This document shows, piece by piece, positions 7,149 to 24,326 of a stretch of DNA of 36,693 nt. The notes beneath the pieces were generated by a model, which was given only the letters and a program-made list of their open reading frames with translations, had not been told where the DNA came from and searched no databases. Location of the stretch: positions 1 to 36,693 of the IMG/VR virus record IMGVR_UViG_3300042429_000625; one strand, given 5' to 3'. Source of the DNA: a virus. The first letter of the stretch is position 1; every line of letters starts with the position of its first letter. The position numbers and the translations under genes are program-made.

Positions 7149-8042
7149 ATGTCGTTCAAGATCACCGCCGCTTTCGTTGACCAATTCTCTGGCAACGTCG
7201 AGCACCTCACCCAGCAAGGCGATTCCCGCTTTGCTGGCAAAGTCCGCAATGAGTCCCAAAAGGGCAAAACCAAGTTCTTCGAACAGCTGGGCACTACCCG
7301 TGCCGTTCGCCGCACTTCCCGTCACGCTGATACTCCTCGCGTTGATAGCTCGCACCAGCGCCGTGCCTGCTTCCTCAATGACTACGACATCAGCGACCTG
7401 GTTGATTCACTGGATGACACCAAGATGCTCATTGATCCGAAATCCAGCTACGCTCAGTCGTTTGCTATGGCGTTCAATCGCGCCAAGGATGAGGAAGTCA
7501 TCACTGCTGCAACTGGCGACTCCTACGCCGACAAAGACGGCACTGGTGCCACTATCGCTGTCGCTCTGCCTGCTGCTCAGAAGGTCGCTGTGAACTTCGG
7601 TGGTTCTAACATCGGCATGACGCTTGCTAAGATGATCGAGGCCAAGTCGATCCTGGGCAAAGCTGAGTATCCCAAGGGTTCCGAGTTATTCCTTGCCTAC
7701 ACTCAGCAACAGCTTGATGACTTGCTCCTTAACGTGAGCCAAGTGTCTAGCTCTGATTACGCTGCTGTGAAGGCTCTGGTTGACGGTGAAGTGTCCTACT
7801 TCATGGGTTTCAACTTCATCAAGAGCGAGCTGCTTACCCTCACCGTTGCCTCTGACGTTCGCACCTGCTTCGCCTATGTGAAACAGGGTTTGGTTCAGTC
7901 CATCGGTCAGGACATGGTTGCTAAGGTCGATGAGCTGCCCACCAAGAACTACGCCACTCAGGTTTACGCCAACATGAGCGTTGGCGCCTGCCGTATGCAG
8001 GAAGAGCTTGTGGTTCAAATCTCCTGCGACGAATCCCCGTAA
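7149..8042 (+). CDS. Major capsid protein
   Basis: 297 residues, directly after the scaffold gene. It belongs to the podovirus HK97-fold capsid family that starts with a short 'F...F...v..l.qq..s.f...v' segment; here MSFKITAAFVDQFSGNVEHL, then TQQGDSRFAGKVR. DTPRVDSSHQRRACFLNDYD is another family landmark, and MGFNFIKSELL near residues 218-229 corresponds to the conserved 'G..fi.se.l' before the C-terminal strand. It is not cleaved by an obvious prohead protease, and none is encoded. The start is the ATG after CTTCTTTT; an overlapping frame from 7096 is a shadow. Confidence 0.92.
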   Translation: MSFKITAAFVDQFSGNVEHLTQQGDSRFAGKVRNESQKGKTKFFEQLGTTRAVRRTSRHADTPRVDSSHQRRACFLNDYDISDLVDSLDDTKMLIDPKSSYAQSFAMAFNRAKDEEVITAATGDSYADKDGTGATIAVALPAAQKVAVNFGGSNIGMTLAKMIEAKSILGKAEYPKGSELFLAYTQQQLDDLLLNVSQVSSSDYAAVKALVDGEVSYFMGFNFIKSELLTLTVASDVRTCFAYVKQGLVQSIGQDMVAKVDELPTKNYATQVYANMSVGACRMQEELVVQISCDESP

Positions 8043-8640: not shown

Positions 8641-10419
8641 ATGTCTCTGAATGTGAATCAAGTGGTTGGTAGCAAGCCCCAGATTATCGGGGGTGAGTTG
8701 GACGGTGAGCCAGGCACCTATAAGGCGCTTGTTTTAAGTGAAACGGGTGGCATCACCCAAAACTCTCACGTCGTTGACTGCTCGTTTACCAAGACCGGCG
8801 CGGGGCTGGTGGCGGATGAAGTGGTGCAAGTGGGCGCAACGGGTTCGGGTATGACCGTAGCTCAGGCTTATGGCAATTTGCTGGTGGATACCGGCACCAC
8901 GGTAAACGCTGAGTTCCTGATGCGCTCGGTGGAGTCGATCAAGGGCGGGCACATTGCACGCGCCAAGGTGATGCTGAGTCAGAAGATCGTGAATCAGCAC
9001 TTCGGGGTTTATCTCGCTGATTTGATTGGTGAGAACTGCGCGTTTACCACGGATGAAACCGGCCTTCTTATCTCGATCACGTTGCCAACTGGTCACGGGT
9101 TTACTTCGGCCAATGTTGGGCAAAGTTGTTACCTTGGGGGTGGCAGTGGTGCGGCTGCCATTGTGCCTGGTCGTTATGCAATAACTGCGGTGGCTGGTGA
9201 TGTAGTCACATTCTCGCCGGTCTTTGCTTGCACCTGGACGCGTTCGACCACTACGGCAACGATCACCTTCCTCGGTGGGAATCCAATCTTTTCCATCGCT
9301 GAAGCTGCGACGGTCAGTGCATCGTCCGACACGCTTGCAATCGTCAACGGTGCGGTATCACTGCTCACGCAATCGTCTGGTGGTGTTTCTACCTTCACCT
9401 GCTTAAACGCTGGTGCTACTGCCGGCACGTTGACGCTTACCATGAGCGCCAAGGCGTGGACTCCGAGCGCAAGTGGCACGGTGACTGTGTTCGGCTGGAA
9501 CTGCGTGAGTTTGGTCAAGAACGGCACTTCGGCCACCACGACCAACTGGTTTGACTCTCAACGTCGCGGCTGGGGTTCCGGTGCGTCGTCGCTTACGCTT
9601 ACCACGGATGCCTCGCCTGGTGTTATGGTTCAATTCTCCGGTGATACTACCTCGGAGTTCCTTTGTGACGCCTCACCGGCCACGGCGACGACGGTTCAGT
9701 TCACTTCTCGCGCTAGTCGTTTGGAAAGTCTGGTTGATGCGCTTACTCCTGTTTATCTGTTCATTCAGGCGTTCAACGGTGTTACGGCTCCCGCATCGAC
9801 TACTCGCTTAACGGTGGGCAAGTTCTCGATGGAGGAGACGGGAATCAACAAGGTGATTATCGGGGGAGTAAGTCAGGCTGGATCAGGCAACGGCCAACGT
9901 GTGGTAGTAGATTCGATTACGATGCCGTCGTCGACTGCGGTGGCCGGCACCGCTGCGGAAGGTGCCTCTGCTTCGGGTAATCCGGTGGCAATCGGTGTTA
10001 AAGCCGCAACCGCTATTCAGACTGCTCGCACGGCTGGGCAAATGGTCGCCCCGGCTGCTGACAAAATTGGTCGGTATGTTGGTTGTGGTGAGCAAATCCG
10101 AGACCTGAACACGATGGCTCCGATGGTCACGCTTACCAACACTACGGAGACGACCGTTGTTGCGGCAGTCGCCTCGATCTTCAATGATCTTCGGGCACTC
10201 ATCATCACCAATACGAGCGCAACGGGAACCAGGGTTGATTTCCGACATGTGGCTGCTGGTACGGTGGTGTTCTCGGTGTGGGTTCCGGCTACTACTACGC
10301 TGACCGTAACGCTGCCTGTGGTTGCTAGACAGGCTACGGTGAACACGGCATGGACTGCGCAGCTTGGAACTGCGGTCACGGATGTTCGTATCACTGCGTT
10401 TGCCATTCAGGTGAACTAA
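8641..10419 (+). CDS. Large beta-rich structural protein (possible head fibre or outer appendage)
   Basis: 592 residues, Thr/Ser/Ala/Gly/Val-rich with few charges, as in secreted or virion beta-sandwich proteins. The N-terminal ~110 residues (MSLNVNQVVGSKPQIIGGEL, QKIVNQHFGVYLADLIGENC) look like a separate domain, perhaps the anchor. Two similar strand-rich segments contain ATITFLGGNPIFSI and TLTMSAKAWTPSASGTVTVF, followed by a region ending in TAWTAQLGTAVTDVRITAFA. It has its own transcription unit between two terminators. It could be a head fibre, a vertex spike or an extra tail protein. No catalytic motif or known fold is identified with confidence. Confidence 0.75.
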   Translation: MSLNVNQVVGSKPQIIGGELDGEPGTYKALVLSETGGITQNSHVVDCSFTKTGAGLVADEVVQVGATGSGMTVAQAYGNLLVDTGTTVNAEFLMRSVESIKGGHIARAKVMLSQKIVNQHFGVYLADLIGENCAFTTDETGLLISITLPTGHGFTSANVGQSCYLGGGSGAAAIVPGRYAITAVAGDVVTFSPVFACTWTRSTTTATITFLGGNPIFSIAEAATVSASSDTLAIVNGAVSLLTQSSGGVSTFTCLNAGATAGTLTLTMSAKAWTPSASGTVTVFGWNCVSLVKNGTSATTTNWFDSQRRGWGSGASSLTLTTDASPGVMVQFSGDTTSEFLCDASPATATTVQFTSRASRLESLVDALTPVYLFIQAFNGVTAPASTTRLTVGKFSMEETGINKVIIGGVSQAGSGNGQRVVVDSITMPSSTAVAGTAAEGASASGNPVAIGVKAATAIQTARTAGQMVAPAADKIGRYVGCGEQIRDLNTMAPMVTLTNTTETTVVAAVASIFNDLRALIITNTSATGTRVDFRHVAAGTVVFSVWVPATTTLTVTLPVVARQATVNTAWTAQLGTAVTDVRITAFAIQVN

Positions 10420-10611: not shown

Positions 10612-11229
10612 ATGGCTTCAAAGACTCAGATTTGTAACTTTGCTTTGGGGCTAGTCGCCTCAGAGGGCATCAACTCGATTGATGACGCGACTGAACCAGC
10701 TCGTCAGTGCAAGCTCCACCTCGATCAGACTACTCGAGAGGTGTTGCGCTTGGCTCCTTGGCGTAGTTGCCGCAAGCGTGCCGTTCTGGTGGCAAATGCG
10801 GCTGTTCCTGCGTTCGGGTGGGATAAGTCATACCTGCTGCCCGTGGACTGGCTCAGAATGGTTTCTTTCAACGACATCGACCCAACTGACATTCGGCGCG
10901 AGTTGTTTGAGGTTGAGGGGCGTGAGTTGCTGACGGATGAGGCAACGGCGAACATCATTTACATCGCTGACGTTACGACTGAGGTCGGTGGAGCGGGTTA
11001 CAACCGACTGGATGCGCTGTTGACTAAAGCGATTTACTACTCGTTGGCGGCTAAGCTGGCGTGGCCGTTGCAGCAGAGTCGCACGCTTGCGGAGTCGCTG
11101 AATGCGTCGGCTGATGCACTGGTGAGACAAGCCAAGTCTGTTAACGCACGGGATGCGTTTGAACCACTGATTAACCCTGTGGATGGTTCGGATTGGGTGA
11201 ACGCTCGGCAATCTTCGACTAACGGCTAA
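10612..11229 (+). CDS. Tail tubular protein A (gatekeeper/adaptor)
   Basis: 205 residues, the T7 gp11 position and size. MASKTQICNFALGLVASEGI, the following acidic stretch, and REVLRLAPWRSCRKRAVL match the family pattern (a helix ending in 'W.fa..ra.L'). FGWDKSYLLPVDWLRM corresponds to the conserved 'y.Y.LP.DclR' segment. It should form the ring between portal and nozzle. It is followed one base later by the nozzle gene. Confidence 0.88.
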   Translation: MASKTQICNFALGLVASEGINSIDDATEPARQCKLHLDQTTREVLRLAPWRSCRKRAVLVANAAVPAFGWDKSYLLPVDWLRMVSFNDIDPTDIRRELFEVEGRELLTDEATANIIYIADVTTEVGGAGYNRLDALLTKAIYYSLAAKLAWPLQQSRTLAESLNASADALVRQAKSVNARDAFEPLINPVDGSDWVNARQSSTNG

Positions 11230-11230
11230 A

Positions 11231-14200
11231 ATGGCACTCCATAAATTTCTCAATAATTTCACGTCTGGCGAGTGGACACCCCTACTTGATGGACGGTCTG
11301 ACTTGGCTCAGTACGACAATGCGTGTCGGACAATGGAGAACTTCCGGCCTATGCAGTACGGTGGGGCGCGTTATCGCACGGGTTTCGAGTTCGTGTGTCC
11401 TGCCAAGTTTGAAACCAAGCAGTGCCGTCTTCTTCCGTTCAACTTCAGCACGGCAACGCGGTTTGTGTTGGAGTTTGGGCACCTGTATATTCGGTTTATC
11501 ACAAACGGTCTTCCGGTGTTGACCGCGGCTAAGGTGATTACGGCGATGACATCGGCGAGTCCTGGCGTGTTTACGTCAACGGCTCACGGCTTTACTAATG
11601 GCAAAGAGATTGTCTTAGATGACTTGGTTGGGCCTACGGTGCTCAATGGGCGGCGGTTCTTGGTGGCTGGGGTGACAACCGATACTTACACGCTGACCGA
11701 TAAGTTCGGGGTGGCGGTTGATACCACGCTCTTGCCTGCGTATGTGTCGGGTGGCACGGCTAAGGGGATTTATGAGGTGGTGACGACTTACACGGAGGAT
11801 GATCTGTTCGGCATCCAGTTTAAGGGCATCAATGACGTGATTTATCTCACGCATCCCAACTACGCACCTCGCAAGCTGTCACGGGTGACTGATGTGAGTT
11901 GGACGTTCGGGCTGGTTGCTTTCGATTCTGCGCCATTACTTGATGAGAACATCACTGCTACCACGTTGACCTGTTCTAACGCGGCTGTGGGCACGGGACG
12001 CACGCTTACGGCGTCTTCTTCGCTGTTTAGTGCTCTTCATGTTGGGTCTGTGTGGCAAATCAGCCATGATCAAGACGCTTTGCAGACTGAGCGCACGCTG
12101 ACATCTAGCGGAAATAGTGCGTCGATTCGGGTAAAGGGAACTTGGTCTATTCAAACTACTGGCTCTTGGACGGCGACGATTAAGGTAGTTCGCTCTTTTG
12201 ACGATTTTGCCACTGCTGGTGAAGTAATTCGGTTGTTTAAGGGTGTGGCGGATCGCAACATTTCGGCTTCAGGGGATGAAGATGAGGACTGTCATTTACG
12301 CCTAGAAGTGACTTGGACAAGTGGATCAGGTCGCGTGTGGATTGAAGCGGAGAACACCACGATTTCGGGCTTGGTGAAGATCACGGCTTACACGTCTGAC
12401 ACGGTGGTAACGTGCCAAGTGCTCACTGCGCTGGCGGCTACCACGGCAACTAAGGTCTGGCGTGAAGGGGCATGGAGCGATTACCGAGGTTATCCCCGTG
12501 CGCTGGGGCTTTATGAGCAACGCCTGTTCTTTGGTGGTACGGCTGCTTTCCCCACTCGCTTCTGGGGCTCTAAGTCGGGTGACTTTGAGAACTTCGAAGA
12601 CGGTTCACTTGACGATGATGGTGTGTCGTTCGTCGTGGCGTCTGCTGAGTCCAACCCGATTATGTGGATGGACGGTCTGGACGTGCTGCAAATCGGCACG
12701 GCTGGCGGTGAGGTGGTGGCACGGGCTGGATCGCAAGATGAGCCTTTAACGCCTTCCAACGTGGCCGTTCGTGCTCAATCGTCCTACGGTTCTGATACGA
12801 TTCAATCAATCAGCGTGGGTGACGCGGTGCTATTCATGCAGCGGCAAGGGCGTCGTCTGCGTGAGATGGCTTACACCATTGAGAAAGATCGTTATGTGGC
12901 ACCTGACCTTACCTTGCTTTCTGAGCACGTCACGGAGTCGGGAATTGTTCAAATGGCGTTTGCTCGTCAACCTGACCCTACGCTGATGCTGGTGCGTGAT
13001 GACGGCCAGCTTGCGGTTCTTACCTATAACCGTGAGCAAAACGTCACGGCATGGGCACGGTGGACAACTCCAGGCTACTTCGAGTCAATCACGTCAGTTT
13101 ACGGCTCACCTGTGGATGAGATTTGGGCATCAGTTAAACGCACGATAAACGGCGTCACCGTTCGCAACATTGAACGTATGGCAGTCGAAGAAGAAGCTGC
13201 GGGCACTGCCAACCTCGCTGAAGTCGTCTTCATCTTGGACACCACGGGTTCAATGGGGAGCATCATCACCTCAGTTCTCACTCAAATCTCTGAAATCGCT
13301 GCGCTCTATGTTGCCAAGTTTGGACGTGCCCGCTTTGCCCTTGCTGACTACAAAGACGAAACCGATCCATTCGTGTTCGATGACTTCATGGATTTGGACG
13401 CCTTAGCAATCGTACTGGCTACCAAAACAGCCGATGGCGGCGATGATGCGCCAGAAGACGGCTACGGGGCCATCAAGAAAAGTATGGAACAAGCAAGCTG
13501 GACGCTTGGTTCTGCACGCTTTGCCGTTCTCTTTACTGACGTTGAATCCCATGAGCGCGGTGCAACTGAGGCACAGGCTCTTTCTGCACTGCAATCCAAA
13601 GACTGCGTGTTCTCCTACGGCATTGGCGTTGAACCAACTTTTGAGGATTTACGCACTGCTACTGGTGGCGTTCTCGTTGAAGATATTGACACAATCGCCA
13701 ATGATCTTCTGCCGTCCGTATTTATTCCATTCACTGAGTTCCACTTAGATTGTGCTTCAGTTGGCACAGCGTCTTCAAACGTCATTTCTGGTCTGCATCA
13801 CTTGGAGGGTGAGTCAGTCCGTGTCGTGCTCAACTCTGCCGTTATGGGTGATTACACGGTCACGGCTGGGGCAATCACGCTTCCAGTGGGTTCATTGGGG
13901 GCTTACGCTATCGGCCTGCCTTATTCTGGCACGATTAAGACCATGCGCCTAGATACCCAACTGGCGAACGGTGCGAGCCAAGGGCGCAAACGGCGAATCA
14001 CTGAAGCAACCTTGCGCTTCAATCAAACGCAGGGGTGTAAGTTTGGGAAGTCACTGACTGCGTTAAACGAGATTCAGTTTAGGGGCTGGGCTGATGATCC
14101 GAGCATTGGGGCTCCTAAGTTTACGGGTGAGAAAACCGTGAGCTGGCCTATGGGCTACTCTGAAGACGCTGTGGTTTACGTTGTGCAGGATCAACCGTTG

Positions 14201-14251
14201 CCGTGCACGCTGCTAGGTCTTGCGATTAAGCACGATTTCATGGGGGATTGA
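11231..14251 (+). CDS. Tail nozzle protein (tubular protein B) with inserted VWA domain
   Basis: 1006 residues. The start (KFLNNFTSGEWTPLLDGRSD, then NFRPMQYGGARYRTGFEFV) and YPRALGLYEQRLFFGGTAAF at about 421-440 are hallmarks of podovirus nozzle proteins. Residues about 663-832 are a complete von Willebrand A domain: VVFILDTTGSMGS (MIDAS D670, T672, S674), ALADYKDE (D706), GGDDAPEDG (D738, D739) and LFTDVESHE (D770). After it the nozzle sequence resumes with HLDCASVGTASSNVISGLHH, then LEGESVRVVL. The domain thus splits a normal nozzle fold near the place that forms the lower, outer tip. A metal-dependent adhesion role in host contact is inferred; the family normally lacks this domain. Confidence 0.88.
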   Translation: MALHKFLNNFTSGEWTPLLDGRSDLAQYDNACRTMENFRPMQYGGARYRTGFEFVCPAKFETKQCRLLPFNFSTATRFVLEFGHLYIRFITNGLPVLTAAKVITAMTSASPGVFTSTAHGFTNGKEIVLDDLVGPTVLNGRRFLVAGVTTDTYTLTDKFGVAVDTTLLPAYVSGGTAKGIYEVVTTYTEDDLFGIQFKGINDVIYLTHPNYAPRKLSRVTDVSWTFGLVAFDSAPLLDENITATTLTCSNAAVGTGRTLTASSSLFSALHVGSVWQISHDQDALQTERTLTSSGNSASIRVKGTWSIQTTGSWTATIKVVRSFDDFATAGEVIRLFKGVADRNISASGDEDEDCHLRLEVTWTSGSGRVWIEAENTTISGLVKITAYTSDTVVTCQVLTALAATTATKVWREGAWSDYRGYPRALGLYEQRLFFGGTAAFPTRFWGSKSGDFENFEDGSLDDDGVSFVVASAESNPIMWMDGLDVLQIGTAGGEVVARAGSQDEPLTPSNVAVRAQSSYGSDTIQSISVGDAVLFMQRQGRRLREMAYTIEKDRYVAPDLTLLSEHVTESGIVQMAFARQPDPTLMLVRDDGQLAVLTYNREQNVTAWARWTTPGYFESITSVYGSPVDEIWASVKRTINGVTVRNIERMAVEEEAAGTANLAEVVFILDTTGSMGSIITSVLTQISEIAALYVAKFGRARFALADYKDETDPFVFDDFMDLDALAIVLATKTADGGDDAPEDGYGAIKKSMEQASWTLGSARFAVLFTDVESHERGATEAQALSALQSKDCVFSYGIGVEPTFEDLRTATGGVLVEDIDTIANDLLPSVFIPFTEFHLDCASVGTASSNVISGLHHLEGESVRVVLNSAVMGDYTVTAGAITLPVGSLGAYAIGLPYSGTIKTMRLDTQLANGASQGRKRRITEATLRFNQTQGCKFGKSLTALNEIQFRGWADDPSIGAPKFTGEKTVSWPMGYSEDAVVYVVQDQPLPCTLLGLAIKHDFMGD

Positions 14252-14254
14252 GCT

Positions 14255-14653
14255 ATGACCACCCGACTCATTGATAACGATTTGGATTATCCTGTAATTC
14301 TCCCTTGGTGGGAGGCGCATCAGGGCGTTGGAGTGCCTCGCAACATCCTTCCACCATGCGGAGTGGTGGCGATGGATGACGATGGCACTCCTGCGGCGGC
14401 TGGCTGGCTTTACATGGCGGTGGGTGTTGGTCTGGCGTGGATGTCGTGGCATGTGACCAATCCGGTGCTTCCACCGATAAGGGCACTGCGGGCCTTAACT
14501 CAGGTGGCTGGTGCTCTTGAAATGCTGGCTGAGGCTCACGATTACCATATCGTTTACACTGAAACCAACAATCCTGCCCTAGTGCGTTGGATGAAGGCGC
14601 GGGGCTTTCAACAGAATCATAGTGGCGTCACTCAACTCTTCAAAACAGTCTAA
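14255..14653 (+). CDS. GNAT-like protein in T7 gp13 position
   Basis: 132 residues with GNAT-type features: a central 'v.w.V..P.l....i.aL..l' section (AWMSWHVTNPVLPPIRALRA) and TETNNPALVRWMKARGFQ near the C-terminus, the usual final helix-strand of N-acetyltransferases. The T7 gp13 internal virion protein also has a GNAT-like fold, and this gene is in the same place just after the nozzle gene. The acetyl-CoA loop is not clearly kept, so a structural or assembly role is as likely as enzymatic activity. The gene starts three bases after the nozzle stop. Confidence 0.75.
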   Translation: MTTRLIDNDLDYPVILPWWEAHQGVGVPRNILPPCGVVAMDDDGTPAAAGWLYMAVGVGLAWMSWHVTNPVLPPIRALRALTQVAGALEMLAEAHDYHIVYTETNNPALVRWMKARGFQQNHSGVTQLFKTV

Positions 14654-14655
14654 AC

Positions 14656-15144
14656 ATGGGAATAGAAACTTTAGCGGTGGTTGCCATTGCGGCAACGGTG
14701 GCAGGCGCGGGCGTCTCTGCCTATGCTGCCAATGAGCAAGCGAAGTCACAACAGAAGATGGCGAATTACAACGCTGCTCTGATGGACAATGAAGCTGCTC
14801 AACGTGCGGCTGATGCTCGCACTTCAGCCAATGCCCAGCGTGCTCAGAATGACGCATTGCGGGCCAAACAACGGGCTTTGTACGCCAAGGCGGGTGTTGT
14901 GTCGGCTGGCACTCCTTTGCTCGTCCAGGCTGAACAGGCGGCAACGCTTGAAATGGCTGCACTGGACACTGAGCGAACGGGGAACATGGAAGCTGCTCGG
15001 ATGCGCTCGCAAGCGGACATGGATCGCATGGCTGGACGTGCTGCGCGGAGTGCTGGTCGGCTTCAGGTTGCTGGTACGGTGCTGCAAGGTGCCGGTGCTG
15101 CTTCGTCAATGGGTGCAAACTATCGTTATCAAGGAATCGCTTAA
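14656..15144 (+). CDS. Internal virion protein, T7 gp14-like
   Basis: 162 residues. A hydrophobic segment at residues 5-26 (TLAVVAIAATVAGAGVSAYA) is followed by a long Ala/Gln/Arg-rich helix with MRSQADMDRMAGRAARSAGR near the end, and a short tail NYRYQGIA. This is the build of T7 gp14-type ejection proteins, which leave the virion first and form a channel in the outer membrane. It lies between the gp13-like and gp15-like genes, as in T7. A membrane-active role is inferred from the family. Confidence 0.8.
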   Translation: MGIETLAVVAIAATVAGAGVSAYAANEQAKSQQKMANYNAALMDNEAAQRAADARTSANAQRAQNDALRAKQRALYAKAGVVSAGTPLLVQAEQAATLEMAALDTERTGNMEAARMRSQADMDRMAGRAARSAGRLQVAGTVLQGAGAASSMGANYRYQGIA

Positions 15145-15153
15145 TCTACTTTT

Positions 15154-16599
15154 ATGCCTCGTATCCCTCTCGCAACGTTTACACCTAACGCAACGCCTAG
15201 CTCTGCTGTCCGCGGTGACATGGGCATGTTTGACGGCATTGCTGCCGGTCAACGCTCTCTTGCTGCTGGTATCCAGTCCATAGGGCAAGCGGCGGGTGAC
15301 TTCGCTATGAAGAAGCAGGAAGCGGTCAACTACGCTACTGCGGTAGATGCTGACCGGAAGATGAAGGAAGCATTTGTTTCCTTTCAAGACGACCTGAAGA
15401 ACAACGGTGACGAAACAACGTGGGAAGCTGCTTGGCAGAAGCGGGCGGGTGAGGTGGAGAAGGAGATTGGTGTTGAGAAAATGCCTGGTGCTCTGCGTGA
15501 CCGGCTGAGTCCGCAAATGGAGTCTTGGAAGTCGTCGATGACCGGCCAAGTGCGCAGTCAGGCAACGGCTCGCCAGATTAACCGTGCCAAGGGTAACGTG
15601 ATGGAGTCAGCTGAGAATGATTTGAAGCTGGGCGACGTGGCGAGTTACACGGCAAAGATTCAGGGCGGTGAACAACATGGTTTGTTTGATCCGGCTGAAG
15701 CAAAGGCACTGGTTAAAAACGGTGTGCAAAAGGCTGAATACTACGCTGCTACCAACATGATCCTGACTAACCCGATGGCGTCGATGGATGCACTCACTGA
15801 GACGAATAAGGCGGGTGGGTGGGTTAACTACGACAATCTCGATGAGAAACAACGTAAGACGCTGATTGATTCGGCCAACGTAGCGGTTCAGCGGGTGCGT
15901 GCGGAGACTTACCAAGACCTGATTGGTCGCATGAATGATGGGCAAATCATCCCTGTAACGGAGTTAGACGGAATGGTTGAAAAGAAGATGCTCACTTCTA
16001 CGCAAGCGCGGGACATTCAGCGCAATCAGGGCAAGTCAGCGTCTAAAGCTACGGCTGGGGCGTTTGCTGGTGTGATGTCGGCAATCAATGCCTATGATCC
16101 GCGGGATGATGGCACGAATGAGAACTACGCCAACCTTGCGGTTCAGGTGGCAACGCTTCCCCCAGGCTTAAAAGAAGACGCTTATAGCCGATTGAAGGAG
16201 AAGCGTGACCCTGCTTCACCGTTGAATGGTGCGGTTGCACGGGATGCGATGAGCCAAGTTGATGCTTCCTTCAAAGCGGGCTTGTTCGGTCAGTTTGAGG
16301 TGAGTGAGCAAGACAAGAACACGGGGTTATTTATTAAGAAAACCGATCCTGTGGCTTACGCTGCGGCGCTTGAACAGAAGGTTAAGATTGAAGACGCTTT
16401 AAGCTCGTTCTTCAGGGATAAGCCAAAGGCTACCCGTGTGGAAGCATTGGCTTACGTTGGACACGTCCAGGCCGGTCATGTGGCAAAGCAAGGGGCTTCG
16501 TTGTTTGTGGCTCCTACAGTCCGAGCATTGCAAACAACTCCTGCGCCTGCTGAGGTTGACGCCTTGCTCGCAAAATACGGTAAACAACCCAAAAAATGA
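15154..16599 (+). CDS. Internal virion protein, T7 gp15-like
   Basis: 481 residues, mostly helical and polar. The N-terminus (MPRIPLATFTPNATPSSAVR) leads into AAGQRSLAAGIQSIGQAAGD and long charged helices, as in gp15-type ejection proteins that line the periplasmic part of the DNA channel. It is about two thirds of T7 gp15 in length. It follows the gp14-like gene with TAATCTACTTTT before the ATG and overlaps the giant gene by four bases, so the two partner proteins are translationally coupled. Confidence 0.78.
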   Translation: MPRIPLATFTPNATPSSAVRGDMGMFDGIAAGQRSLAAGIQSIGQAAGDFAMKKQEAVNYATAVDADRKMKEAFVSFQDDLKNNGDETTWEAAWQKRAGEVEKEIGVEKMPGALRDRLSPQMESWKSSMTGQVRSQATARQINRAKGNVMESAENDLKLGDVASYTAKIQGGEQHGLFDPAEAKALVKNGVQKAEYYAATNMILTNPMASMDALTETNKAGGWVNYDNLDEKQRKTLIDSANVAVQRVRAETYQDLIGRMNDGQIIPVTELDGMVEKKMLTSTQARDIQRNQGKSASKATAGAFAGVMSAINAYDPRDDGTNENYANLAVQVATLPPGLKEDAYSRLKEKRDPASPLNGAVARDAMSQVDASFKAGLFGQFEVSEQDKNTGLFIKKTDPVAYAAALEQKVKIEDALSSFFRDKPKATRVEALAYVGHVQAGHVAKQGASLFVAPTVRALQTTPAPAEVDALLAKYGKQPKK

Positions 16600-19500
16600 A
16601 CGAACTGAACTCTTCGACTGCCAAGACCAACGTAAATTCCCTGCTGACTGATGACGATGCTTTGTCTGTTTATCGGGCTATCCCTACTGAACAGGATGAG
16701 GGTAAGCGGTCGGCACTGGTGGGCTTGCTGAGTGGTTACACTGAGGCCAAGCGTGCTGCTGGCCTGCAACCGTTTCAGCCTTCAGCCGATAAGCAGAATG
16801 CCCAGGTTGATCGTTTTGAGGGGCTTTATGGTTCACTCGATGACGTTGAAAAGACAATGGCGCCGGAACAGTCGGCCAAGTTGCAGGGCTTGCTTTCCAC
16901 TTCAGCCGATCCAAAGGAAGCCAAGGCGCGGATGGTGAACATGGCTTACATTCAGTCGATGCACGGGAGCAAGCTGCCTGCTGGGTGGGATGATGCGTTG
17001 TGGCCTGGCATTCGTGCATCCTACGCCAATCAAGCGTTTGGTGTGGATAAGCCTGATATGACTGACGTGGAGCTTTACGGGGCAATCAGTGGGCGCGTGA
17101 AGCAGGATAAGGAAGACCGTGCGATGGCTGCTGAATTGGTAAACAAGATGCACCAATCGGCGTTTAAGGGTGAAGGCGATTGGATGAAGGCTTATGAGCA
17201 AGCGAAGCCTGCTGACGATCCTTCTAAGCCAATGACCGCGGCATCACGGGACAAGATGCGTATGATTGCCAAGAACAGCTTTAACCAGGTGAAGGAGAAG
17301 GCGGATCGTCTTCGTCCTGTAGCTGATGACATCGTGGGTAGTCTGGCACGAATCAAGGGAACGCAGAAGGGTTTTGAAGACGTGCGTGGGTTTAGCATGG
17401 ATGAGTTAATTGCCAAGGTTGACGCGGTGCCTGATGCTGACCGGCCTTTGCTTTACTCGGTGATTGCTCAACAGGTTGGTGCAACTCCTGAGTTGTTTGA
17501 TGAGAAGGGCGTGCTTCAACAGTCCGGTGAGTCGATTGGGCGTGGTTTTGTTGACGTGGCTAAGAGCAACAAACGGGCAATCAGTGATAACCCTGAGCTT
17601 ATCAATGCGCGTGCGTTGAAGGCAGCGGGTGATAACGTGGCGGTTGCTGGCGAGCGCAAGCCTGGTGAGTCAATGGTGTCGTGGGTGAGTCGGTCGATGC
17701 AGGGCAATTATGGCATTGTTGATTTTGCCAAGGACGTGATTACGCAAAACGGTCAGCCTTTCTTGCGTAAGCGGCGGGCGATGTCCGCGGATGAGCTGGA
17801 CGCGTTTAAGTCTGAAGTGACCGCAATGGAGCGTAAGCGGGTGATTGGTGATGAACTCGATGAGTTAGCCAATGCGGTGATTGATCCGGTTAAGGGGAAG
17901 AATTTCTTCACCAAGAACGTGCTTTATCCTGCGTTGAATACCGCGGCTTACAGTGCTCAGGCATTTGTTCCTTACGCTGGTTTGCCGTTGCTCATTGGTA
18001 GCACGCTGGGGATGCGTTCTCAGGAAATGATGGATCGTGGCATGAGCATTGAAGATGCCCAAAAGGGTGCGCTGGCGTCGGCTCTGCTTGAGGCTCCCAT
18101 TGAAATGATCCAGGCAAAGATGGTTGTCGGCAATCTGCCGTTGTTTAAAAAGCTCTTGGAGGTGCCGGTTGAGGGATTTGCTTCACTGGCTAAACGCACG
18201 GGTGCGGTGCTGGGCGTGCAAATGGTGGAGCAGAATTTGCAAGAAGGCTTTCAAGATGCGATGCCGTTACTGGTTCAGGAAGTTGGCAGCTTCATTTCTG
18301 AGGCCGTTCCTGGGGTGGATGGTAAGAAGGAGTTGGCTGAGTATGCAAAGGGGCGCGTTGATACGTTTTGGGCACTCCTGCCGATGGTCTTAATCGGGAC
18401 TGGTTCAGCTACGTTCAGCGATGCGGCCTTTGGGCGTCAGTATTTCAATGACGTTCGGGCACTGAAGGCAGTCGGCTTCACGGATGAAGCGGTGACTAAG
18501 ATCATGGAAGCGCCTTCACTGGAAGAGAAGCAGGCTGTGATGAAGTCGATGTGGTCTGATGAGCAAATGCGGGTAATGAATGGCGTAGCTCAACAGGCGG
18601 CTTTTGCTGATTTGGATGCTGACATGCAGGCGTCTTACATAGAGCAAGGTTCTGGTGAAGGTGCTCAGATTCGTCGTCTGGAAGATGGCATGTTTGAGGT
18701 GACGACTCCTGACGGTGAGTTATTGGATAACACAAGCAGTCCTGATGCGGCTTTGGAGTTGGCGCGTGATTGGAATGCTGCCGATCAACTGAACGAGACT
18801 GCGGCCATTGAAGACATGATTGGTTATGTCGAGAGCTTCCAAGAAGCAGGGCAGTCGATTGAGCTGATGGACAAGTCAAAGACGCTTCAGGATCGCGTTG
18901 ATGCGGGTGACTTCACGCAAGAAGAGGCTGATGGGATTGTGCAGCTTTACACGGAAATGGGGCGGCTGAATGAAGGGGCAACGCCTGGCTCTGTTTTGAT
19001 TACGGGTGAGAATGAAGTGACCAAGTATGATGCGCGTCGGCGTATCGTGTCGGACGTTTCACGCATCTATGACGGTGCAAGTCCGCTGACTGTGGTGGAA
19101 GAGCACGCTGAGGGTTATCTGAAGCGGCGTCTGGCTGATGGTTCTGTGACGCTTGAAGACATTGTGCGGTGGCGTAAGAGCACGGGGAGCACTGTAACGG
19201 ATGCTTCAGAGCGTGCGCTGATTGAGTGGTTTAGTGAGCAGTCACAAGCCTATCTGGTGGGCAAGTCGAACGCTGAAGCGTTGCCTGCTACCTTTCGCCA
19301 ATTCCTGAGCAAGCTGCGGAAGTATCTCGGTAAGATTCTTGATCTGTCTGTTCGGCTGATGGATCTGGAAGCGTCTGGCAAGATGGATGGCAACTTTAAG
19401 ACTCACCTGGCGCGGTCGGTGGGGCTGGATCAAGCTCACATTGATGCTCAAATGCGGGCTGAAGAGGTGGGGCAAATGGATGGGCGTGGCACTGAGCTTA

Positions 19501-22500
19501 TGGGGTGGCTGAAGGGCAAGCTGCCGCATCCTGATACGGCAAAGGCTAACGGTGAGCAACTGGCGGGTGAGCTGGCTACGGTGTGGGAGGGATTTAAGTC
19601 ACCACAAGCGGCGCGTGCGTTCTTTGCGCCAAAGGGTGTTTACACGCCACTGGATCAACTGGCTGGCATGGCACGGGATGACGGGTTTCCTTTCGAGACG
19701 GCTGATGATCTGTTGAAAGCCATTGATTCGTCACTGCGCGGCGAAGAGGTGTTTGCTGATGCTGGCACTGGTGCGACGTTCAGCCTGAGCGATTCACGGG
19801 CAAAGCCTGAAGACGCAAGCAACGTCACGGTGCTGCCTGATGGTGCGCAACTGGTCGGGCCTACTACGTTCAGCTTAACAGCCTATCATGGCACTCCTCA
19901 CAAGGTGGACAAGTTCAGCATGGACAAGATCGGAACGGGCGAGGGTGCGCAGGCTTACGGCTGGGGGCTTTACTTCGCGGAGAATAAAGCGGTGGGCGAA
20001 GAATATAGGAGGAGTCTATCAGACAACATGCTTTCGCGTGATGTTCTAAAGGAGTATTTTAAGGAAGGGGCTATCATACCGTCATATGGCGGCATGGATC
20101 GCGTTGTTAAATTAAATCTCGGTGTAGATGTCGCTAATTGGAGTGTGGACGTTCAAGCGGTTGTGCCTGACGGAAAAGGGGGGTGGAAAAAGGAAAGTGA
20201 TTATGGCACTGGAATCCGTAACCATAGCACTTATCCAAGTCCCAAAAATTTAGATAAGTTGGGAATAAAGAGGGGCAACCTGTATACCGTAGAGCTACTA
20301 CCAGACGCCGATGACTTCCTTGACTGGGACAAGCCACTGAGAGAGCAAAGCGATAAGGTTAAGGAGGCTTTGGCTAAGGTGGACAACCGGCTAGTTAAGG
20401 CTTTGGCTGAAGTTGCTGCTGGTGGTCGTCCTAGGGACGTAGCGGTAAGCCATGGGGTTAACGTGATAGACCTTTACCTAGGTTCTGGCGGTGCAATGGT
20501 GCAAACGCTAGGTGGTGACGCTGCGGCATCTAAGACGCTGGCGGCTGCTGGCATTCCAGGAATCCGCTACTTAGACGGAGCAAGCCGTGGCAAGGGTGGC
20601 ACGTCCAACTACGTCATCTTTGACGAGTCGCTTGTGAAGATCATCGAAGAGAACGGCAAGAAGGTGGAGCAAGCGGGGGCTACGTTCTCGCCGGCTGACA
20701 TCAGCGCGAAGTGGGAAGCGCGTGGCATCAAAAACCAAGTGAGCGAAAAGGGCGGGGTAATTACTCTGTCTTCAATTCGCGTGTCTGACACTGAGCAGGC
20801 CCAGGGTCTTGGCACGGCAGCAATGAAGGAGTTGACGGCCTACGCCGACAAAAGCGGGCAAATGATCGCGCTAACACCTTCAGTTGATTTTGGGGCGTCT
20901 TCGGTTGGACGGTTGCGAGACTTTTACAAGCGATTTGGCTTCGTGGAAAACAAGGGCAGGAACAAAGACTTCCGAGTCAGGGAGACGATGATTCGTGAAG
21001 CCAAGAAGGGCGGGAAAGCTGACATCACAATGGGCATGGAGTCGCTTGACCGTGCAAATGAGATTAAGGCAGTGATGCGGAAGCATAAGATTGCTGCGCG
21101 TGTGGCTGCTGCGGATCACCAAGGGGAAGCGTTCTCACCTGAAATGCGTAAGGCTATGGAAGACCGGCTTTATCGCGTGGTTCCCAATAAGGAAACGGTG
21201 GCTGAAGCGTTAAAGGTGGTAACGGAGAAGGGTGTTGGTAATGCGTTGGAGCTTGTTCTGTCACGAACCAGTACGCTCACGCCCAACGTGCAGGTTGCTC
21301 TTGGAATGGCACTGATGGAGCATTTCAATGCCAAGAAGCAGTTTGAGAAGGCGATTGAAGTAGGTGAGCGAGTGAATGAGTTGGGCACTGAGTTGGGGCG
21401 TGGTGTTCAGGCGTTCAGTCTGTTGGGCAACGTGCTCGATACTCCTGAAAAGGCTCAAATCTTCCTGTCTAATAAGCTGAAGAGCTTGGAAGCGGCTTTG
21501 CGTGAGCGTAAGCCGGTCATTGACGCATCCAAAGAGGTGTTGGCTAACGTGCAGGAAGAGGCGTTGAAGCTTTTGGAGAAATGGCTTGATGAGATTAACG
21601 GGGTTTCTGGTAAGCCGATGGCTTCACGGAAGGCTGTTAGAACTGAGGATTTGCCTGATATTACCTTCGCACTGAGCCAAGACGTGCGGAAGTCAGGCAT
21701 TGTGTCGGTTGTGGCTCGTATGCTCAAGGAATCGGGTGCTGCGGAGACGCGGAAGGCACTGGTTGAGAAGTACGGCGACAAGGTTGCTCCTCATGTGGCT
21801 GACATTCTCATTGAGGCACAAAAGCAACTGACGGCAAAGGCTGCGGCTAAGAAGGCGAAGCCAAAGGTGGATAAGCCTGGCGCTGCTGCTGAGGATAAAG
21901 GCAAAGATCGCAGTGGGCCACGGATGAGCGAAGAGGAGATTGATAACGCACTGGCTGAGATTCACGCCACGGGGCGCAAGGTAGGCTTCCAAGATCAAAT
22001 GGTTGCCATTGAAGAGCATTTCCAAGGTAAGCGTATGACTGATGCTCAGATTGAGGACACGCTTGCGCTAGGGCGTGCAATGGGCATCGGTGGCACTACT
22101 ACCACGCTGGAAGGGTTTGATGACCTGGTTAAGCGGTTTGAGGATGAGGTAATCAACCGGCTGAAGGTGAAAGGTCATGATGCGCCAAAGTCGCTGCGTG
22201 ATGCCGTGCGGAAGCTGTTTGAAACCAAGGGCGTCAAGTTTACCCGTGAGGACATTGCGCGGGTGTTCGCTGAGAAGTTCAAAGTGCCAAAGGCAACGGA
22301 GACGCAAAATAAGCGCCTAGTGGAGTTGGCTGAGAACATTCGGAGCACGCCTGAGTTTTCGACTGCTCGGACTGATGCAACGGTGGAGCTGATGAACCAC
22401 GTCAATGAAATCCTGAAGCCGGTTGATTGGGTGGATATTGGTTGGTCACTTTGGTATGCCAACGTGTTGAGCGGGTATAACACCCATTTCCGCAATCTTT

Positions 22501-24326
22501 ACGCGAATACCTTAGAGCAAATGGTTTCGCTTCCATTGGAAGCAATGCGGGCGAATCCAGTTAAGACGCTGCAACTGATGCGTGAAATGCTTTACGGGGT
22601 GAAGGCTGGGGCGTCTATCGGCCTAGCTGAAGCCAAGAATCAGTTGAAGACGGGTGAAGCGTCGGTGTTGCAAACTGAGTCGAACAAGTTTGGCAGTTCC
22701 GGCACGTTGGAGCGGGTTGACTTCGCTGGTGGGCAGGCAAATCCGTTCAACTGGCTGAAGGTAGTTGGTCGTGCTCTGCGTGCGGAAGATTTGTTTGCCT
22801 ACGCAACGGCTCAGGAAGCCAAGGCGCGCATGGTTGCGTGGGAAATGGCTGACGCAAAGGGGCTGATTGGTGCGGAGCGTCAAGCTGAGGTTGAAAAGCT
22901 CTTAAACGCCACGGATGAGCAGATTGGTGACTTCGCTGAACGGGCTGCGCGTGAGTGGGATGGTCTGAGCGATGAGCTGAAGGCCAAGGGCAATCGTGAA
23001 CAGTGGGAAGCGCGACGGGTGAAAGAGCTGCGTCTGTTGGAGCGTGATGGTGCTCTGATTGAGCGGGCGAGTGAGTTTGCGGCGCGTGCTACGTTCAATT
23101 ACAAGCCTGATGGGTTTGTTGGGCTTATGGCGAACAGCTTGATTGATGTAATGAATGGGCTTGGTCGTGCTGATACGACTGGACAAGCTGAGGTTGTGCA
23201 AAAGGCACTGATGACGGCTCCTAAGTTGGTGGTGCCGTTTGTTCGGATTGTCGCCAATGTGCTTAATCGTGGCATTGATTACACGGGCATGGGCATTGCA
23301 CGGTCTGCTTTTGAAACTAAGCGAGTTGGGGCGGCTGCTGGTAAGAATGGGTTTGTTGCCAAGTCAGCCGATGAGCGGGCAATGGAGTTGAAGCGGGGCA
23401 TTTTCGGCATTGTTGCCTTGGGTGTGCTGTCCAGCCTGGCGAATCCTGACGATCCTGAGGCAGAGATTCAGATTCACGGCTCTGGTGCTGGCTCACGCGA
23501 GAAGAACCAGGCGCTTAACGGGCCGCGGTGGATGCCTTATTCAATCGAGTTCAGGGGCAAAGAAGGGTCTAAGTTTTACACCTTCCAATACAGCCCTTTG
23601 CTCATGGGGCTGGCCTTGGTTGGTAATTACCACGATGCGAAGCGTTATCGTAAGCTCGATGAAAAGGATTTGACTGAGCGCCTGGCGGTGGCGGCTGCTG
23701 GTGTTGGTTCGGTGCTGCTCGATCAGTCGTTTCTTTCCAATGCTGCCGATCTTGTGAACATGTTTGGACGTGATGGGCAGGTGTCCCAAAATGCGCTTTA
23801 TTCGTTCATGGGTCGCACCTTCAATCCTTCCACGGTAGCGATTCCGTTTTCGTCACTGCTGCGTCAATTGGAGCGTGACTTTGATCCAGTGCAGCGGAGT
23901 AAACCGGACATCAAAGCGGCGTTGTTCTCCAATGTGCCGGTTGCAGCACGGGCGAATGATCCAGCGTTGGACATTCTTGGGGATGCGATTGCGAACAGGC
24001 CGTTTGACTGGTTGGCGCGTGCGTCTGTCGATGGCACTCCTGAAGCGCGGATTTACCGTGCGTTTGGGGCTAAAGACCTGGTTCCTACGTCTGTCTGGTC
24101 TTACAAAGGCAAGATGGAGCCGGAACAGTTCTACCAATTCACCAAGGAGCGCGGTGCGTTGTTGAAGGAGTCGCTGATGCGCAATGATGCGGCGTTCCTG
24201 AAGTTAATCGAATCTTCCAACGAAGAAGTTGCTGCGAAGATTCTCGAAAACCTTTCTCGTTCGGCTACGCAAATGGCGCGAGTTCGGGTCGGCTATTTCC
24301 CTGAAGTTAAAACCAAAACCAAATAA
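16596..24326 (+). CDS. Giant internal virion protein (T7 gp16 position) with ART and GNAT domains
   Basis: 2576 residues, about twice T7 gp16. Residues 1-1090 are mostly helical, with hydrophobic patches near 450-520. Residues about 1095-1353 form an ADP-ribosyltransferase-like domain of the phage polyvalent-protein type: TAYHGTPHKVDKFSMDKIGT, AYGWGLYFAENKAVGEEYR, and NYVIFDESLVKII at the end. Residues about 1368-1474 are a GNAT acetyltransferase (VSDTEQAQGLGTAAMKELTA, LRDFYKRFGFVEN). The C-terminal ~400 residues (RWMPYSIEFRGKEGSKFYTF, SPLLMGLALVGNY) resemble the C-terminal part of other giant phage internal proteins. No transglycosylase domain was found at the N-terminus. It is likely ejected into the host with the DNA, delivering the enzymes; that step is inferred from position. 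Confidence 0.85.
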   Translation: MNELNSSTAKTNVNSLLTDDDALSVYRAIPTEQDEGKRSALVGLLSGYTEAKRAAGLQPFQPSADKQNAQVDRFEGLYGSLDDVEKTMAPEQSAKLQGLLSTSADPKEAKARMVNMAYIQSMHGSKLPAGWDDALWPGIRASYANQAFGVDKPDMTDVELYGAISGRVKQDKEDRAMAAELVNKMHQSAFKGEGDWMKAYEQAKPADDPSKPMTAASRDKMRMIAKNSFNQVKEKADRLRPVADDIVGSLARIKGTQKGFEDVRGFSMDELIAKVDAVPDADRPLLYSVIAQQVGATPELFDEKGVLQQSGESIGRGFVDVAKSNKRAISDNPELINARALKAAGDNVAVAGERKPGESMVSWVSRSMQGNYGIVDFAKDVITQNGQPFLRKRRAMSADELDAFKSEVTAMERKRVIGDELDELANAVIDPVKGKNFFTKNVLYPALNTAAYSAQAFVPYAGLPLLIGSTLGMRSQEMMDRGMSIEDAQKGALASALLEAPIEMIQAKMVVGNLPLFKKLLEVPVEGFASLAKRTGAVLGVQMVEQNLQEGFQDAMPLLVQEVGSFISEAVPGVDGKKELAEYAKGRVDTFWALLPMVLIGTGSATFSDAAFGRQYFNDVRALKAVGFTDEAVTKIMEAPSLEEKQAVMKSMWSDEQMRVMNGVAQQAAFADLDADMQASYIEQGSGEGAQIRRLEDGMFEVTTPDGELLDNTSSPDAALELARDWNAADQLNETAAIEDMIGYVESFQEAGQSIELMDKSKTLQDRVDAGDFTQEEADGIVQLYTEMGRLNEGATPGSVLITGENEVTKYDARRRIVSDVSRIYDGASPLTVVEEHAEGYLKRRLADGSVTLEDIVRWRKSTGSTVTDASERALIEWFSEQSQAYLVGKSNAEALPATFRQFLSKLRKYLGKILDLSVRLMDLEASGKMDGNFKTHLARSVGLDQAHIDAQMRAEEVGQMDGRGTELMGWLKGKLPHPDTAKANGEQLAGELATVWEGFKSPQAARAFFAPKGVYTPLDQLAGMARDDGFPFETADDLLKAIDSSLRGEEVFADAGTGATFSLSDSRAKPEDASNVTVLPDGAQLVGPTTFSLTAYHGTPHKVDKFSMDKIGTGEGAQAYGWGLYFAENKAVGEEYRRSLSDNMLSRDVLKEYFKEGAIIPSYGGMDRVVKLNLGVDVANWSVDVQAVVPDGKGGWKKESDYGTGIRNHSTYPSPKNLDKLGIKRGNLYTVELLPDADDFLDWDKPLREQSDKVKEALAKVDNRLVKALAEVAAGGRPRDVAVSHGVNVIDLYLGSGGAMVQTLGGDAAASKTLAAAGIPGIRYLDGASRGKGGTSNYVIFDESLVKIIEENGKKVEQAGATFSPADISAKWEARGIKNQVSEKGGVITLSSIRVSDTEQAQGLGTAAMKELTAYADKSGQMIALTPSVDFGASSVGRLRDFYKRFGFVENKGRNKDFRVRETMIREAKKGGKADITMGMESLDRANEIKAVMRKHKIAARVAAADHQGEAFSPEMRKAMEDRLYRVVPNKETVAEALKVVTEKGVGNALELVLSRTSTLTPNVQVALGMALMEHFNAKKQFEKAIEVGERVNELGTELGRGVQAFSLLGNVLDTPEKAQIFLSNKLKSLEAALRERKPVIDASKEVLANVQEEALKLLEKWLDEINGVSGKPMASRKAVRTEDLPDITFALSQDVRKSGIVSVVARMLKESGAAETRKALVEKYGDKVAPHVADILIEAQKQLTAKAAAKKAKPKVDKPGAAAEDKGKDRSGPRMSEEEIDNALAEIHATGRKVGFQDQMVAIEEHFQGKRMTDAQIEDTLALGRAMGIGGTTTTLEGFDDLVKRFEDEVINRLKVKGHDAPKSLRDAVRKLFETKGVKFTREDIARVFAEKFKVPKATETQNKRLVELAENIRSTPEFSTARTDATVELMNHVNEILKPVDWVDIGWSLWYANVLSGYNTHFRNLYANTLEQMVSLPLEAMRANPVKTLQLMREMLYGVKAGASIGLAEAKNQLKTGEASVLQTESNKFGSSGTLERVDFAGGQANPFNWLKVVGRALRAEDLFAYATAQEAKARMVAWEMADAKGLIGAERQAEVEKLLNATDEQIGDFAERAAREWDGLSDELKAKGNREQWEARRVKELRLLERDGALIERASEFAARATFNYKPDGFVGLMANSLIDVMNGLGRADTTGQAEVVQKALMTAPKLVVPFVRIVANVLNRGIDYTGMGIARSAFETKRVGAAAGKNGFVAKSADERAMELKRGIFGIVALGVLSSLANPDDPEAEIQIHGSGAGSREKNQALNGPRWMPYSIEFRGKEGSKFYTFQYSPLLMGLALVGNYHDAKRYRKLDEKDLTERLAVAAAGVGSVLLDQSFLSNAADLVNMFGRDGQVSQNALYSFMGRTFNPSTVAIPFSSLLRQLERDFDPVQRSKPDIKAALFSNVPVAARANDPALDILGDAIANRPFDWLARASVDGTPEARIYRAFGAKDLVPTSVWSYKGKMEPEQFYQFTKERGALLKESLMRNDAAFLKLIESSNEEVAAKILENLSRSATQMARVRVGYFPEVKTKTK

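Follow-up and report, generated by a model that had tools for sequence, protein, structure and literature searches.

An uncultured short-tailed phage carries, within its gp12-type tail nozzle protein, a complete von Willebrand A (VWA) domain that in the predicted model resembles the integrin I domain and retains an intact predicted metal site (MIDAS). We favor, with about even confidence, the interpretation that the inserted domain, on the outer flank of the tail, is an additional module that binds the host surface by means of its MIDAS. Nozzles are usually seen as gates, with recognition left to the fibres, and the nozzle VWA provides a testable case of a phage virion that bears a MIDAS domain. 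A first-pass annotation of this DNA had proposed an adhesion module at the tail tip; its picture of a rare, apparently metal-competent VWA inserted in a gp12-type nozzle held up, but its placement of the domain at the tip did not.

The phage and its nozzle protein

The source is an IMG/VR record of 36,693 bases (the window, i.e., the whole stretch of DNA analysed) with the layout of an uncultured short-tailed phage: large terminase, portal (identified by PF12236, E 7e-102), capsid, adaptor, nozzle, internal virion protein, a 2576-aa protein, and tail fibre. The capsid, gp11-type adaptor, nozzle, and internal virion protein genes follow one another in the gp12-type order.

7149-8042, capsid (PF19821, E 3e-75)
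10612-11229, gp11-type adaptor (phrog_394)
11231-14251, plus strand, gp12-type tail nozzle protein that carries the insert (1006 aa; phrog_376)
14656-15144, internal virion protein (phrog_418)
24332-26884, plus strand, tail fibre gene, separate from the nozzle (phrog_1640 over residues 1-128)

The nozzle ORF matches the phrog_376 family profile over its full length (residues 7-1002, E 3.8e-188) and the Carin-1 tail nozzle in the PDB (8ck1_A, E 2e-82). The AF2 model of the whole nozzle (pLDDT 79.5; residues 1-1006) aligned to 8ck1 with a VIA Z of 43.9 and to T7 gp12 with a Z of about 27, and through these structure matches it has the seven-bladed propeller and platform of the nozzle fold. As in T7 gp12, the Carin-1 nozzle, and phrog_376, the platform comes first, followed by the propeller and then by the C-terminal dock and platform. 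The T7 and Carin-1 nozzles differ in that they lack a VWA domain, and in T7 the stretch between the end of the propeller and the dock is short. The parts of the window nozzle referred to below are as follows.

11573-11764, plus strand, FCCH-like domain, a second nozzle decoration (residues 115-178; PF16190)
13154-13180, plus strand, last propeller strand upstream of the insert, TVRNIERM region (residues 642-650, a DSSP strand)
13214-13690, plus strand, VWA domain core (residues 662-820; PF25106, PF00092, AF2)
13238-13252, plus strand, predicted MIDAS loop 1, DTTGS (residues 670-674)
13436-13459, plus strand, predicted MIDAS loop 2, GGDDAPED (residues 736-743), with D739 at the expected metal-ligand position
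13535-13555, plus strand, predicted MIDAS loop 3, TDVESHE (residues 769-775), with D770 as predicted ligand
13739-13945, plus strand, FHLDCA (first strand) and HLEG domain, corresponding to the fibre-dock region of T7 (residues 837-905; from hhalign and the insert-free alignment)

The FCCH-like domain scores E 0.025 in the window and 7e-5 in the related locus L002, both under the curated cut-off for PF16190. In Xanthomonas phage CP2 (L010:1501-4604), two adjacent ORFs make up the nozzle.

A VWA domain with an intact predicted metal site

The first-pass annotation had assigned the insert to 13217-13726, which corresponds to residues 663-832 of the ORF at 11231-14251, and its motifs DTTGS (670-674), ADYKDE (705-710), GGDDAPED (736-743), and TDVESHE (769-775) lie where it placed them. 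Its claim of a full VWA domain is borne out by matches to the PF25106 and PF00092 profiles and by a predicted VWA/I-domain fold. When the whole protein was scanned, PF25106 (VWA_4) matched residues 665-790 and passed its cut-off (E 9.8e-8, 32.2 bits against 27), while PF00092 matched residues 665-801 slightly under its cut-off (E 1.8e-4). Both pass when the domain is scanned alone (36.7 bits against 27 and 26.8 against 23.8, respectively), and both are above cut-off for the VWA of L002.

The whole-protein AF2 run modelled the VWA region poorly (pLDDT mostly 30-65) because FILDTT of the VWA was misaligned in the MSA with the F-x-V-D strand of VWA-free nozzles, and the domain was therefore folded alone, with an alignment that took in cellular VWA relatives. 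The resulting model (pLDDT 85, pTM 0.84) matched integrin beta-I domains, alpha-I domains, and CMG2 with VIA Z of 17-19; the model shows the alpha/beta I-domain fold (best match Z 19.0, 177 residues, rmsd 2.8). A search of the PDB with the domain sequence gave no match, so that the evidence for the fold consists of the Pfam profiles and the predicted model.

Sequence comparison placed D670, T672, S674, D739, and D770 at the five canonical metal-site positions, and the VIA match to 1ido sets model residue 9 on residue 132, which puts D670 on residue 140 if the alignment is ungapped. The metal-site positions are invariant among 48 aligned sequences (the window, L002, and 46 cellular relatives; alignment A7), in which D739, E742, and D770 are kept in 48/48 and H774 in 47/48. 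In A7, DTTGSM and DYKDETD are conserved partly by design, both peptides having served as search patterns, and the conservation of D739, E742, W757, D770, and H774 is free of this bias. The domain thus appears to be metal-competent and may bind a divalent metal at the MIDAS.

Bacterial proteins of the PF25106 type with a DTTGSM...GGGDxPED pattern (Labilithrix, Calditrichota, Ruminococcus, and others) share the domain and the metal-site pattern with the nozzle, but are cellular open frames of about 440-900 aa that lack the nozzle flanks. Integrin I and beta-I domains share the fold and metal loop 1, but are only 11-18% identical to the nozzle VWA, in which the predicted loop 2 ligand is an Asp (D739, of the GGGD-PED type) where integrins and other classical I domains usually have a Thr; there is also no sign of an integrin-type partner.

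The insertion and its relatives

The flanks of the insert, as originally claimed, read as a continuous member of the nozzle family: in insert-free relatives, IERM runs straight into F-x-L/V-D-[CS]. The interval from the last propeller strand to the GLxHLEG motif is 45 residues or fewer in 59 of 77 non-redundant homologues and clearly longer in 17 of the 77; of these 17, a VWA occupies the interval only in L002, a close relative. An alignment of nozzles from Pelagibacter, Nostoc, Burkholderia, Caulobacter, Xanthomonas, and other phages likewise showed a VWA between IERM and FHLDCA-SGLHHLEG only in the present lineage. That the VWA is an ordinary part of the nozzle fold is ruled out by the 59 homologues without any insert, in agreement with the first-pass reading, and an assembly chimera is ruled out by L002, which comes from a separate metagenome and shows the entire architecture.

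The L002 protein is about 70-71% identical to that of the window over its whole length, and about 60% identical over the VWA only. A third locus, L003, has a VWA opening with the canonical DxSxS (DESSS) at the same junction (L003:5537-5600); its frame is lost about ten residues or fewer past this opening, near the contig end, and the loss may therefore be a sequencing error. Judging from this short sequence, L003 probably carries the VWA at the same junction. A fourth member is probably UniProt A0A6J5QP07, a 'VWFA domain containing protein' of an uncultured Caudovirales phage, which has nearly the same total length as the window nozzle (1007 aa) and matches the model of the VWA domain with 53% identity, though it lacks a nozzle annotation. 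The first 370 nozzle residues are also encoded with 100% identity on contig L004 (L004:3501-4612), and since this contig is from a different metagenome, close kin of the phage exist elsewhere.

Other phages have different domains in longer-junction nozzles. FCCH-type domains occur in L016 and L034 and, by sequence, in L036, L041, and L043, while the nozzle at L114:3535-6540 carries at the same junction a LamG domain (PF13385, E 1.6e-23) together with another beta-rich region and an FCCH-like domain. The occurrence of FCCH, LamG, and VWA at one junction in different phages indicates that the junction accepts several domains, and suggests that it serves generally as a place where surface-binding modules can be added. 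LamG is a carbohydrate-binding type of fold.

No nozzle VWA was seen outside the present lineage in scans of 160 IMG/VR loci or in VWA-only scans, and at the four remaining viral loci with a VWA (L262-L265), the product is a stand-alone VWA protein. VWA-only tblastn of GenBank phage records gave just weak matches, all in uncultured gut phage records; the weak match in the crAss-like cr106_1 is a gene outside the tail block. As a separate gene, a VWA was sought in 50 related records, and PF25106 was found only in that of L002; none of 84,980 bacterial and archaeal genomes held a prophage copy with the VWA sequence patterns. The open-licence literature searched held nothing relevant on a VWA in a nozzle or tail, and to that extent a VWA in a nozzle is new. 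Nozzle inserts as such are already known, e.g., the Ig-like domains carried by the SU10 tip (PMC9509320).

Position on the tail

Most PDB proteins that have only the propeller in common with the nozzle align up to residues 653-657 and no further, which means that the VWA starts immediately downstream of the final strand of the propeller. An hhalign comparison with T7 gp12 placed residues 418-654 on T7 residues 337-582 and residues 847-997 on about 611-781, at a modest probability of 38.8 (E 3e-4), with the domain order backed by the structure match. In T7, the propeller is followed by the fibre dock, which lies on the outer surface; a loop of blade 3, bounded by about residues 146 and 281, forms the tip (PMC6702177). 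In SU10, blade 1 bears the fibre-dock loop, the insertion that forms the tip lies between blades 2 and 3, and blades 1-3 are positioned away from the tail axis (PMC9509320). In the window nozzle, the tip is a separate insertion at about residues 240-400, apart from the VWA.

Since the VWA follows the propeller and precedes the outer-surface dock domain, it most likely projects from the tail flank beside the fibres, as placed by homology to the T7 and SU10 structures. A sensor bulging from the tail tip, as first proposed, is thus very improbable: the VWA does belong to the nozzle, the opposite end of which makes up the tip, but the tip loop corresponds to about residues 240-400 and the VWA comes after the propeller (PMC6702177, PMC9509320).

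Possible functions of the inserted domain

What might a VWA domain do on the flank of the tail? The domain, its metal-site residues, its insertion, and its rarity are computed results; metal binding, the exact position, and adhesion to a ligand are inferred, as follows. The inserted VWA would fold on its own and bind a divalent metal at the MIDAS, whose ligands are intact. With one VWA on each nozzle subunit, the tail would bear a ring of six around its outer side, next to the fibre docks, if the homologous structures are a guide. Each copy may serve as a metal-dependent grip of short range that holds a protein or glycan of the host surface, either following the long fibres or in concert with them.

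This accessory grip is suggested by the VWA fold, the intact metal-site positions, the absence of the insert from most relatives, and its position between the last propeller strand and the dock. The VWA is moreover an addition to the phage's own fibre, the same junction carries FCCH or LamG modules in other phages (a LamG in L114), and there is a precedent in Bdellovibrio Bd0875. In Bd0875, a MIDAS domain lies within a small beta-rich domain, and the MIDAS Asp is required for prey invasion (PMC11003981). In both proteins, a VWA interrupts a beta-rich domain at an interface for cell entry; Bd0875 differs in that it belongs to the bacterial surface and has a lipobox and a cap region (PMC11003981), and the likeness is one of architecture.

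A less probable alternative is that the VWA makes a contact within the virion, gripping its own tail fibre, the adaptor, or a neighbouring nozzle subunit, to give firmer docking or a metal-dependent latch that is released on ejection. VWA domains often bind partner proteins or subunits of the same complex, not a foreign surface, and the insert adjoins the fibre-dock domain. In SU10, moreover, the short fibre is held by the blade-1 dock loop of the nozzle (PMC9509320). However, the N-terminal fibre anchor was found in 31 of 50 related records, 30 of which have no VWA_4 match, indicating that docking works without the VWA, which is therefore an addition and not the dock. That other phages have a LamG or FCCH domain at this junction also argues against a contact of this kind, and an accessory grip on the host surface is favored over it.

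It is unlikely that the VWA is a structural spacer, tolerated because it sits in a permissive loop and lacking any essential role that depends on a metal. Such a loop is consistent with the unrelated domains (FCCH, LamG, and others) accepted at the junction and with the greater divergence between the window and L002 in the VWA than in the whole protein (about 60% against 71% identity). Yet all five metal-site positions are retained in these two phages, which are about 40% apart in the VWA, and L003 opens with the canonical motif.

An extension of the accessory grip that we regard as speculative and rather improbable is that, in this small phage lineage, an integrin-type, force- and metal-dependent grip on the nozzle mechanically couples host contact at the six docks to untwisting of the nozzle and DNA release.

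Codon use and origin of the insert

The first-pass annotation had proposed transfer from a preference for C-ending codons. Third-position C is indeed higher in the insert than in the flanks (0.36 against 0.22 and 0.23), but this value reaches only the 93rd percentile among other structural genes, and total GC3 drops to 0.50 in the insert against 0.57. In its synonymous codon choice, the insert is unlike every other nozzle block (log-likelihood per codon -1.32 against -1.16 +/- 0.05, minimum -1.25). The L002 insert has a smaller rise in third-position C. Gain by transfer is plausible from this codon shift, and since L002 and probably L003 have the VWA at the same place, the insertion is older than the window phage. 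The domain is common to at least two, and probably four, members of the lineage, and acquisition before they split or later replacement at the site would both be compatible with this. Cellular VWA relatives are up to 39% identical over about 110 aa and are spread over many phyla, so that no donor can be named.

Other genes in the window

A 592-aa ORF at 8641-10419, between the capsid and adaptor genes, matched nothing in PHROGs and nothing significantly in Pfam. A small ORF downstream of the nozzle (14255-14653) belongs to phrog_17252; the ORF at the equivalent post-nozzle place in Nostoc phage Nsp-JY18 is annotated as an acetyltransferase. Besides its conserved N-terminal anchor, the tail fibre (24332-26884) has a long region rich in alanine and weakly matches CBM_4_9 (residues 583-693). 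The 2576-aa protein (16596-24326) has weak ART-PolyVal (residues 1095-1139) and GNAT (residues 1350-1449) matches, both below cut-off, and looks like a polyvalent protein.
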